Below are positions 54,913-60,526 of a stretch of 64,000 nucleotides of DNA, one piece after another. The stretch is from positions 496,001-560,000 of the forward strand of contig NZ_CP035730.1 in the NCBI RefSeq assembly GCF_012222305.1, given 5' to 3'. Source of the stretch: Sulfolobus sp. S-194 (GTDB lineage Archaea; Thermoproteota; Thermoprotei_A; Sulfolobales; Sulfolobaceae). Below the pieces are notes generated by a model. The model saw only the letters and a program-made list of their open reading frames with translations. It did not search any database and had not been told where the DNA came from. A program made the translations under genes and the position numbers. Each line of letters begins with the position of its first letter. Position 1 is the first letter of the stretch.

Positions 54913-54987
54913 GGACCCGTAGCTCAGCCAGGACGGAGCGCCGGCCTTCGGAGCCGGTGGTCCCGGGTTCAAGTCCCGGCGGGTCCG
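54913..54987 (+). tRNA. tRNA-Arg (TCG)
   Basis: 75 nt: acceptor GGACCCG/CGGGTCC, anticodon stem CCGGC/GCCGG around CTTCGGA (anticodon TCG), T-arm CCGGGTTCAAGTCCCGG. No intron. The last 42 bases are repeated at 60485-60526, so this is the attachment site of the element to the right. Position 59 is G here and A in the other copy. Confidence 0.97.
54946..54987. repeat. attL, 42-bp repeat (tRNA-Arg 3' end)
   Basis: From CTTCGG in the anticodon loop to the discriminator G. Same as 60485-60526 except 54973 (G here, A there). Confidence 0.92.
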
Positions 54988-55040
54988 TAATTTTCGCGTG
55001 AATTGAAAGTTGTTTTCATTCTCTTTATCAGTACATTAAT

Positions 55041-55068
55041 GCAAGATATCTAGGCAAAAATGCAAAAT
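55041..55068. repeat. GCAAAAT-type sites at the left end of the element
   Basis: GCAAGAT (55041), GCAAAAAT (55054) and GCAAAAT (55062) lie between the att site and the integrase start. The same heptamer occurs four times just inside the right end, so these are good candidates for integrase arm sites. Confidence 0.55.
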
Positions 55069-55096
55069 CCTTATTAAGCAGAATGCCATACATATA

Positions 55097-56380
55097 TTGA
55101 TGGTTAGTTTTAATGTCTCAAAACTAAATTATGAGCAAAGATTACGCATACTTAAGAAAGCAGTAGAAAAGCACGGAAAGGCATACATTGCGAGGGTATG
55201 TAATATTAACTTAGCCACAATTTACCGTTACCTGAACGGTCAGATTTCAACAATACCAGATGAAGTAGTTGATAAGACATTACAGACACTGACAGTTGAA
55301 GAGGCTACTGACGCAATATACGGGTTAAAGACTATTGATATTGACCCCACAACAGCACTAAGCGTGATAGTTAAAGCGGTTAAGGACGAGGGCTTTAGAA
55401 ACTTTTTCCTATCCCTACTTTTCAAATACTTAGGAGATTATCTTAAGCAAACGTCTCAATCATATATAGTTACTGAAGAAGATGTGAAATTATTTGAAAA
55501 AATTATAAGAGAGACCAGAACTAAAAAAACAGCAGATGATATAATCAGGTACTTAGCACGTGCTTTAGCAGACTTAAATAATGAGTTAACCCCTGACAAA
55601 CTTAAGGAGTACATATTAGAATTATCTGAGGAGAATAAGGGAAGAGCAAGACATACGGCTAAAGCACTCAAACTCTTCATTAAAGAAGTAGTAAAGTTAA
55701 GGGATAGCCACTTAGCACATGAGCTTTACGATTCGTTTAAAATACCCAAACAGAAGACCAATTACAAACCCATTAGCCTGAGCCTAGATGTGTTAAAACA
55801 AATATTTAATACAATAGAGGATATTGGTGCTAAAGCATTCTTCCTCATTTTGACTGAGACCGGGCTCAGGGTAGGAGAAGTATTAAATCTAAGAGTAGAC
55901 CAAATGGATATGGAACACCGCATTATACATATAATGAAAGAGTCAGAAACAAAGAGGGCTTACATTACATTTCTCCACGAAAGCACAGCTAAGTGGTTGA
56001 AAGAAGAGTATTTACCATACCGTGAGGAATTTATTAGACGTTATGAAAGTAATCTTAGAAAGCTAGCTGAAGCAAATCCCGACCAGGGTATTAATGTGGA
56101 AGAATGGAAGAGTAAACTATTTCCATTTAGAGAAGACGTACTTAGGACAGAGATTAAAATAACTATGAAAAAAGTGTTGGGGAAAGAATTCCGTCTTTAC
56201 GACTTACGCTCCTTCTTTGCTTCATATCTTATAAAACAGGGGGTTAGCCCCCTCATCGTGAATCTGTTACAGGGTAGAGCACCACCACAACAGTTTCAGA
56301 TTCTTCAGAACCACTATTTTGTGGTCAGTGATATCGAGTTACAGCAATATTACGATAAGCACGCGCCACGAATTTTGTAA
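55097..56380 (+). CDS. Tyrosine recombinase (integrase) of the tRNA-Arg element
   Basis: 427 aa. The N-terminal 60 residues hold a helix-turn-helix like stretch (AYIARVCNINLATIYRYLNG). The catalytic domain shows ETGLRVGE (R258), K286 in ESETKRAY, YDLRSFFASYL (R371 with Tyr instead of the usual His two or three before), QGRAP (R394) and the nucleophile Y407 in NHYFVV. The Tyr-for-His change is common in crenarchaeal integrases. A TTG at 55097 precedes the ATG at 55100. All residues needed for activity seem present. Confidence 0.9.
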   Translation: MMVSFNVSKLNYEQRLRILKKAVEKHGKAYIARVCNINLATIYRYLNGQISTIPDEVVDKTLQTLTVEEATDAIYGLKTIDIDPTTALSVIVKAVKDEGFRNFFLSLLFKYLGDYLKQTSQSYIVTEEDVKLFEKIIRETRTKKTADDIIRYLARALADLNNELTPDKLKEYILELSEENKGRARHTAKALKLFIKEVVKLRDSHLAHELYDSFKIPKQKTNYKPISLSLDVLKQIFNTIEDIGAKAFFLILTETGLRVGEVLNLRVDQMDMEHRIIHIMKESETKRAYITFLHESTAKWLKEEYLPYREEFIRRYESNLRKLAEANPDQGINVEEWKSKLFPFREDVLRTEIKITMKKVLGKEFRLYDLRSFFASYLIKQGVSPLIVNLLQGRAPPQQFQILQNHYFVVSDIELQQYYDKHAPRIL

Positions 56381-56708
56381 TGTGCTTTATAAGTTTTCTT
56401 TCTCAAGTGTTTCCAGTTTTAATAAGCATTTCTAAGGATTATTAGAAATACACGTATTCACAGTGTTTCACTTTTTTGCACAGTTGAGTGGAGCGCATTT
56501 AAAAAAAACATATAATTAGGAAAGAGCATTTTGAATTGCTATTTTGTTTCAGTATTCTGGGCAAAATACGGGGCATTTACCCCCTCATTTTTATTACGCT
56601 CTGAGAAGAAGAATAAAAACAAACCCACTCTTCTTCTTCTTATATTATATGTTTTCTGGTACGCTTATACACCTGACTGTGCAATTAGTCTAGAAAAAAT
56701 TATAAATA
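56381..56708. other. Element intergenic region
   Basis: TTTCTAA and TTAGAAA (56429-56448) form a 7-bp hairpin after the integrase and may end its transcript. A 63-codon hydrophobic frame at 56531-56722 from a TTG is seen (FLLRSEKKNKNKPTLLLLILYVFWY), but with no support for being a gene. TTATAAAT at 56699-56706 could be the promoter of the ParB-like remnant. Confidence 0.4.
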
Positions 56709-57208
56709 CTGAAAATTTCTGAGAAAGAAGTACAAAAATTCTCGCCAAGTGGCGAGAATTTTGATCATATAGAAGATTAATTGTTAATCAAAACTACGAG
56801 TTAATTAACGGATACACACGCCTAAAGATAGCTAAAGAATTAGGGATAAAAAAGGTTCCAGTTGCGGTATACGAAACGACTGACAGAGCGGATGAATACG
56901 ACTTATTAGTATCTACAAATCTTACTCAAAGACAGCTGAGCAGAGCACAGGCATTAGCATTGATAGAAAAAGCCGTTGAAGAGAAGACGAAGATAATAAA
57001 AAAGAATCAAGATAGTGATAATAATCCTAAAATGACAAAAGTTGAGTCTGGGGAGACTCAACTTAGTGCGACCGAAAGTAAAAAAATACAAAATCTCACC
57101 GAAATAAAGAATGCAGTAAAAGAAGAGCTAAAGAAGCATAACATAAGGATTGATGATAGAAGAATTGATGAATATATAAAAATTCAGAAGAAAAAGTCTT
57201 CTCGCTAA
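56709..57208 (+). pseudogene. Broken ParB-like gene
   Basis: After 56790 the frame reads NYELINGYTRLKIAKELGIKKVPVAVYE and NLTQRQLSRAQALALIEKAV, matching the ParB/Srx nuclease-like domain (idGhRRleA and the following helices). There is no start codon in this frame back to TGA 56762. A different frame just upstream gives LKISEKEVQKFSPSGENFDHIED and then TAA, which fits the missing ParB N-terminus. A deletion of about ten codons with a frameshift explains both. The tail (57000-57208) is Lys/Glu-rich. It overlaps the convergent gene by 113 bp. Confidence 0.65.
56735..56762. repeat. 12-bp perfect hairpin in the ParB-like remnant
   Basis: AAAATTCTCGCC and GGCGAGAATTTT with loop AAGT. It is the strongest hairpin in the element, GC-rich at the top, and lies at the frameshift point. 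It may be a parS-like site, a terminator or a mark of recombination. Confidence 0.65.
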
Positions 57209-59565: not shown

Positions 59566-59950
59566 CTTTCTTCACCTCTTCATTCATGAAGTCTTCAATG
59601 TCGTCCGGGTTTTCGATTATCGCGTACATGCCAAGATAGTAGAGTACCTTATCATATTTCACTTTCTTCTCGCAGACTACACCTATGATTTCGCTATTTT
59701 CTAACGCTTTCATAAAGTCCTCATCATTCTCGACCACACCAGGTAGTAGTAAAGTCCCTTTGCCTTCATCATATTTTTTGCCGTTGAAATCGTTGAATAC
59801 GCCCGCGTAGATTTTGATAGGTACCGCTATGAACCCGCTCTTAGTCTTATGCCAATTTCCTATTGCTTTAAATACAGCCCTCTCCGACGAAATACGTAAA
59901 AAAACACCATTACCTTTATTATTTAGTTTTTTGTAATTGAATTTGGACAT
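59558..59950 (-). CDS. Uncharacterised element protein
   Basis: 130 aa from MSKFNYKK with GGTGA 8 bases before the ATG. NGVFLRISSERAVFKAIGNW and GKGTLLLPGVVENDEDFMKAL look like an ordered alpha/beta domain, and the tail is acidic (DDIEDFMNEEVKKDE). It overlaps the MCM-like gene start by 8 bp, so it is cotranscribed and may be its partner. Not recognised. Confidence 0.65.
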   Translation of the reverse strand: MSKFNYKKLNNKGNGVFLRISSERAVFKAIGNWHKTKSGFIAVPIKIYAGVFNDFNGKKYDEGKGTLLLPGVVENDEDFMKALENSEIIGVVCEKKVKYDKVLYYLGMYAIIENPDDIEDFMNEEVKKDE

Positions 59951-60003
59951 CCTGGTCACCCCTTTTTCTTGATTACGTGACGAGAAATGAAAAAACGGAT
60001 TAT

Positions 60004-60288
60004 TTATGACGATACCTCAACGATTAAGGTAATTTTTTCAATTTTTGACCAATCCATGAGATTTTTCGGAAGACCTATTGCCAGAGTTCCAGCGTTATTT
60101 ATTCTATAAAAACTTTTGAATCCTATGGGAATAATTTCGTTTTCAATTTTTAAATACACATAATATTTCTTACCTTTTTCTATAATTCCACTAAATATTC
60201 TAGGTATGTACGCATAGACTCTCTTCGCGTTTTTTGACACTTTGACTTCTGGTATAATTAAATGCTTGATTACTATTTGCATTTTCAC
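60004..60288 (-). CDS. Small uncharacterised element protein
   Basis: 94 aa, beta-rich (VYAYIPRIFSGIIEKGKKYYVYLKIENEIIPIGF). Related-looking short proteins of archaeal plasmids have this SpoVT/AbrB- or swapped-hairpin-like pattern, but I cannot be sure. It is the first minus-strand gene from the right end and may be a regulator. Confidence 0.55.
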   Translation of the reverse strand: MKMQIVIKHLIIPEVKVSKNAKRVYAYIPRIFSGIIEKGKKYYVYLKIENEIIPIGFKSFYRINNAGTLAIGLPKNLMDWSKIEKITLIVEVSS

Positions 60289-60404
60289 TCATCATAAAAT
60301 GATGTCAGTGGGGCTTATAAATGATGTGCTATTTTTTTATATGTCGAGTGTAAGGAAATAAAGAAACTTTATAAAGTTTTTTAATACTTAAGTAGGGGGG
60401 TTAA

Positions 60405-60457
60405 GCAAAATATGTATATTGCAAAATGCTTTAGGTGCAAAATAACACGTGCAAAAT
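60405..60457. repeat. Four GCAAAAT repeats beside attR
   Basis: GCAAAAT starts at 60405, 60421, 60437 and 60451, spacing 16, 16 and 14; three have T before the G. They lie 28-80 bases inside attR. They may be iterons of the element's origin or arm-type integrase sites, matching those at 55041-55068. Confidence 0.7.
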
Positions 60458-60484
60458 CTCATCTAAAATGCAAGGTTATGTGTT

Positions 60485-60526
60485 CTTCGGAGCCGGTGGT
60501 CCCGGGTTCAAATCCCGGCGGGTCCG
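60485..60526. repeat. attR, partial tRNA-Arg copy
   Basis: 42 bases from CTTCGGAGCCGG to GGGTCCG, the 3' half of tRNA-Arg(TCG) with one difference at 60512. It cannot make a tRNA. Confidence 0.93.

Follow-up and report, generated by a model that had tools for sequence, protein, structure and literature searches.

An integrated pRN1-type element of Sulfolobus sp. S-194 that most probably exchanged its RepA unit for an MCM-like cassette

Several described elements of the Sulfolobales bear on the locus reported here. In pRN1, the replication origin lies downstream of the RepA gene (PMC4234260). The plasmids pSSVi and pSSVx are packaged and spread by fuselloviruses (PMC3543421), and a classical and a "suicidal" class of integrases have been described (PMC8371274). 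We analysed a stretch of 64,000 nucleotides from the genome of Sulfolobus sp. S-194 (NZ_CP035730.1, positions 496,001 to 560,000, forward strand; this whole stretch is called the window, and coordinates refer to its first letter), in which a 5.5-kb integrated element occupies a tRNA-Arg(TCG) gene. Very probably it is an integrative plasmid of the pRN1 group whose RepA unit was replaced by a pSSVi-type cassette with an MCM-like gene. What is new here, judging from the sequence, is that one initiator was apparently exchanged for another, in nature, on a shared plasmid backbone; the protein family itself is known. The comparison set consisted of 31 genomes of the family (labelled as a G000-series, with loci as an L-series). 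The host genome is a single contig of 2.79 Mb (G000:C1), which also holds a second MCM element, labelled L019.

The integration target, tRNA-Arg with the anticodon TCG (54912..54988, + strand; ARAGORN and Rfam), is completed by the left att copy. A repeat search placed this copy, attL, which forms the 3' part of the tRNA, at 54946..54987 (+) and its counterpart attR at 60485..60526 (+). The two direct repeats of 42 bp are identical at 41 positions, with one mismatch, and lie 5,539 bp apart. A chance origin can be excluded because three other genomes (L063, L064 and L065) have elements at this tRNA that are bordered by the same repeats. Between the repeats, the list of open reading frames (ORFs) contains an integrase gene, a ParB fragment, three small genes and a gene for a 689-aa AAA+ protein; Rfam recognized no RNA family in the element besides the tRNA. 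The integrase gene (55100..56380, +; ORF 55097-56380) is intact and encodes a tyrosine integrase of the pNOB8 or conjugative-plasmid type (Pfam Phage_integrase, E 1.5e-13), which over its full length is 57-59% identical to integrases of several conjugative-type plasmids of Sulfolobus and Acidianus and 50% identical to that of pNOB8. It survives integration unbroken because att lies outside, upstream of, the gene in this class. The ParB fragment (56780..57187, +) corresponds to residues 47-183 of a 436-aa ParB of the pYN01/pNOB8 type (81% identity to pYN01, 69% to pNOB8) and is a relic, since both the start and the C-terminal part are missing. An initial annotation of the locus had already proposed an integrated element in tRNA-Arg with 42-bp att repeats, an intact integrase and a ParB-like remnant, and all of these are borne out.

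Three genomes (G030, G029 and G014) carry elements of 6.9-8.0 kb between att repeats at the same tRNA-Arg(TCG). Their integrases are 84-86% identical to the one in the window (79-80% for the DNA of pRN1-type elements at this site, blastn), and their orf91/94, located upstream of RepA, is 60-62% identical to orf94 of the window (60004..60288, −), a backbone gene upstream of the initiator gene (70-74% at the DNA level). Where the window has the MCM-like gene, these sister elements hold a RepA of 862-867 aa; that of G030 contains Prim-Pol and pRN1_helical domains and is 65% identical to the RepA of pRN1 and 66% to that of NC_004853. Such a prim-pol/SF3 RepA, present in the sister elements, is absent from the window element.

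Blastn of the window divides the element into backbone from the tRNA to 56371, ParB sequence from 56780 on, a cassette at 57202-60022 and backbone again from 60020 on. The cassette is of the pSSVi type, measures 2.8 kb and comprises three genes (orf130, the MCM-like gene and orf141), which follow orf94 in the same orientation. Its GC content is 43%, compared with 30-37% around it, and its DNA is 79% identical to a complete SSV-type element that the host carries at tRNA-Gly(CCC), and 77% identical to one in G012. On the left, the ParB scrap meets the 3' end of the pSSVi-type orf141 at 57188..57196. On the right, at 60018..60022, pSSVi-type sequence to the left and pRN1-type backbone to the right share a 3-nt ACG, and cassette sequence codes for the final residues of orf94. 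As integrase and orf94 are shared with RepA-bearing elements, and yet an MCM-like cassette and a ParB scrap are present, we regard the element as a mosaic. The cassette is most likely the incoming part, because the RepA version is found in two genera and the MCM version here in one genome, with scars. The initial annotation was correct in calling the initiator MCM-like, but the mosaic with a pRN1-type backbone and a replaced prim-pol RepA went unseen.

The MCM-like gene (57496..59565, −) is intact. By profile and fold comparison its product is MCM-like. This putative replication initiator has the Walker A motif GGSGTGKSS, the Walker B motif FIEQID and two C-terminal winged-helix regions (residues ~509-580 and 633-688; Pfam TrmB and secondary structure from AlphaFold2, AF2). 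In a tblastn search, the protein matched one plasmid, pSSVi, and 25 fusellovirus records. It shares 56% of its residues with the large pSSVi protein (633 aa aligned) and 57% with an SSV10 protein (640 aa aligned), and is 81% identical to the copy in L019. A profile of 17 family members aligned with the host MCM over 339 collinear columns (hhalign 96%, E 4.5e-9), the controls being 37% for Cdc6 and 3% for the pRN1-type RepA. This similarity spans the AAA+ core and the C-terminal winged helix, while the canonical Pfam MCM domain was found with 18.0 bits, below its cut-off of 23.3. In Foldseek searches of the PDB with two AF2 models, MCM chains were the 18 best matches of one and all 50 best matches of the other, although with a pLDDT of 59-60 and low TM-scores these fold matches are support and not proof. 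The strands 343-353 and 359-369, again from low-confidence AF2 models, form an MCM-type hairpin between Walker B and sensor 1. At the superfamily level, the large protein is likely MCM-derived. The host has one canonical MCM gene, its own; the MCM-like gene is present in 9 of the 31 genomes, and elsewhere in the family it mostly resides in SSV-type elements with tRNA-derived flanking repeats, often in tRNA-Arg.

The two winged helices, the "EQ" Walker B and the Ser/Pro linker that the initial annotation had described are all real, and the comparison with MCM that it recommended favours MCM over Cdc6. It had also stated that the initiator could not be placed. However, the proteins of pSSVi and SSV10 are known relatives, and since a close match to a described plasmid initiator was its own measure of novelty, this claim is refuted. 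Likewise, replicons whose initiator derives from MCM do form a family, but this family had already been described as pSSVi and the fuselloviruses.

From these data we propose the following sequence of events. The RepA unit and its surroundings would have been replaced by the pSSVi-type cassette, with the ParB scrap at the far junction. The integrase would excise a circle of ~5.5 kb, and integration would be reversible and non-suicidal because attP lies upstream of an intact integrase gene. The MCM-like protein would take the place of RepA as initiator; the main argument for this role is that the cassette sits where RepA sits. Its winged helices would bind an origin in or beside the cassette, the ATP-bound ring would melt this origin, and host primase and polymerase would then take over. 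The sequence of orf94 resembles AbrB-type hairpins, and this gene probably regulates the initiator operon. No core gene is broken, and dN/dS (Nei-Gojobori, against the nearest homologues) points to purifying selection on the integrase (0.04), orf94 (0.11), the MCM-like gene (0.14) and orf130 (0.16), these values being averages over long branches and no proof of present function.

Several observations weigh against this proposal. No origin was located in the window element, and a region matching the position of the pRN1 origin is not recognisable in it; excision and replication are steps that we infer. By protein and blastn comparison, the window element lacks the 275-aa helix-turn-helix (HTH) gene that its sisters carry, so that it could be a relic in decay, with single genes still intact. 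The catalytic Glu of Walker B is replaced by Gln in 16 of the 17 relatives (by Thr in the SSVK1-type protein), the canonical DEID thus reading EQID here, and the Asn of sensor 1 is Thr or Ser in most of them. Because of the exchanged Glu, helicase activity may be lacking in this protein; the Gln could mean either that ATP is hydrolysed slowly or in an altered way, or that the protein serves as an ATP-binding switch. The low confidence of the AF2 models belongs here as well.

It is also conceivable, though rather unlikely, that the element is a dead composite that never was a free plasmid, i.e. that tandem integrations in one tRNA gene were collapsed by deletions. A tandem array of this kind is found in G023, where a complete SSV-type MCM element (L111 2343-9297) is followed, just beyond its attR, by a frameshifted pNOB8-type integrase gene at the same tRNA-Arg(GCG), and the ParB scrap, the chimeric tail of orf141 and an int(N) stub that abuts the start of the cassette (6509 vs 6527 on L019) can be read as scars. 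However, both att copies, the integrase, the MCM-like gene, orf130 and orf94 are intact and constrained, the cassette follows orf94 at a clean junction, in the place and orientation of RepA, and in the congener G028, too, an MCM-like gene accompanies an integrase of this class. Alternatively, the whole element could be a pSSVi-type plasmid that swapped its SSV-type integrase for one of the pNOB8 type, with orf94 arriving along with it. We consider this unlikely: the pSSVi-like part does contain three genes arranged as in that group, and orf94-like genes adjoin pNOB8-type integrases in conjugative plasmids, but integrase and orf94 are closer to the RepA elements (84-86% and 60-62%) than to conjugative plasmids (57-59% and 33-38%), orf94 stays directly upstream of the initiator gene, and orf177, orf150, orf56b, orf87 and copG of pSSVi are unmatched in the window element.

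A third explanation concerns the protein and not the origin of the element. If it served as an accessory ATPase, or as a decoy that acts on the host MCM without hydrolysing ATP, replication would depend on host factors only. The exchanges in Walker B and sensor 1 described above would fit such a role. Nevertheless, all 17 members keep the P-loop Lys and the finger Arg, and the MCM-like gene is the only large gene besides the integrase and sits in the place of RepA, so that we hold this to be very unlikely. Replacement of RepA by an MCM-like initiator on a pRN1-type backbone is thus the reading that we prefer. A more general idea, which we offer with little confidence, is that small Sulfolobales plasmids use their initiators as interchangeable modules, and that an MCM-derived type with a natural Glu-to-Gln exchange may open the origin by binding ATP, without normal hydrolysis, possibly loading the host MCM.

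At tRNA-Val(TAC) of G028, an integrase of this class and an MCM-like gene occur together a second time. This 5.9-kb element has 44-bp repeats, a pNOB8-type integrase (41%) and, directly upstream of the MCM-like gene, a gene resembling orf94 (29%; the comparison was small, E 7e-7). In a tree, the MCM-like protein of G028 groups with ASV1 (100/99) and that of the window with pSSVi and SSV10 (100/100); because the two belong to different clades, the pairing arose at least twice. A comparison of this congener's HTH264 gene with the 275-aa HTH gene revealed no homology.

All three small genes noted in the initial annotation exist, but two of them need correction. The cassette operon begins with orf130 (59558..59950, −), which shares 8 bp with the MCM-like gene. 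This orf130 had been listed as orf133 from an upstream GTG, while its start is probably the ATG at 59950 (130 aa); it is 82-83% identical to its homologues in L019 and L056. orf141 (57096..57521, −) is a chimera of ~108 native residues (57197-57521), with homologues in SSV10, L019, L056 and L057, and a tail of ~30 residues that is read through into the antisense of the ParB fragment. Genes resembling orf94 (32-35%) adjoin the 3' end of pNOB8-type integrases in L146, L148, L150 and L151.

Between the integrase gene and the ParB fragment lies a non-coding, strongly structured stretch (56381..56779). The segment 56378-56790 folds much better than shuffled versions of itself (z = -6.3), and apart from one piece of 35 bp the non-coding stretch had no match in the 30 other genomes of the family. 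At the edge of the ParB scrap, it contains the perfect hairpin AAAATTCTCGCC-AAGT-GGCGAGAATTTT (56735-56762, 12-bp arms), which may serve as a terminator or belong to an origin. Matches to sigma-70-type promoters in a scan of the hairpin region were discounted, as the host is an archaeon. About 5.7 kb to the left of the element, at ~49008-49205 (−), lies a host Cdc6/Orc1 gene, and a chromosomal origin may therefore be near.

Beyond attR, and thus outside the element, an SSV-type int(N) stub was found at 60527..60876 (−; 73% DNA identity to pSSVi and L019). It was rejected as a part of the element, since such stubs also lie beyond attR in G030 and G029; the G028 element has one too. Directly beyond attR in several genomes, stubs of this type with open frames of ~65 codons lie at L063 10381-10596, L064 10942-11157 and L110 18270-18476. 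The stub in the window is probably the scar of an older pSSVi-type integration. Pairwise dN/dS among the copies in the window, L063, L064 and L019 is 0.18-0.27, and the stubs may be plain scars or may be kept for a reason. The complete SSV-type element with an MCM-like gene at tRNA-Gly(CCC) of the host occupies L019 6083-12753 (~658.1-664.8 kb of the contig). There, the stub end almost abuts the cassette start; the corresponding window positions, 60876 and 57202, are swapped in order and separated by attR. This is suggestive of the cassette being the missing body of the int(N) scar, moved to the left, but the stub of G030, which has no cassette, ends near the same point.

If our interpretation holds, a prim-pol initiator was naturally swapped for an unrelated MCM-like one on a single backbone, with junctions that can be read to a few bases, and replication starters can be exchanged between mobile elements. 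As related species carry the RepA and the MCM version in one and the same tRNA gene, the plasmid parts that depend on the initiator become directly testable. Moreover, the Gln in place of Glu in nearly all relatives raises a biochemical question about how MCM relatives work.

Among known systems, pTAU4, said to have been described by Greve et al. in 2005 as a small Sulfolobales plasmid with an MCM homologue and without RepA, is likened to the element by description only and not by sequence; a search of the plasmid set with the host MCM gave no Sulfolobales record among the 12 matches listed. The conjugative plasmids of the pNOB8/pYN01/pARN type share the type of integrase (50-59%) and are the source of the ParB fragment (69-81%), but are 25-42 kb in size, compared with 5.5 kb here, and have no MCM-like match. 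Fuselloviruses such as SSV10, ASV1 and SSV7 encode the same MCM-like family, SSV10 also having an orf141 homologue, but their genomes measure 15-24 kb, and no gene for a viral structural protein was recognised in the window element. pSSVi of Saccharolobus solfataricus P2 (NC_013777) resembles it in the MCM-like protein, in a small gene upstream of it and in 40 of the 42 bases of the tRNA-Arg att, pSSVi being an integrative plasmid of tRNA-Arg as well. These bases, however, lie inside pSSVi's own SSV-type integrase gene, and pSSVi has copG-like and other small genes with no equivalent in the window element, where a split, suicidal integrase of the SSV type was not found, only the int(N) stub outside attR next to an intact pNOB8-type gene. 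The pRN1-type plasmids integrated in G030, G029 and G014 share the tRNA, the att repeats, the integrase, orf94 and the gene order, and differ in having their own prim-pol RepA and the 275-aa HTH gene where the window element carries the MCM-like cassette.

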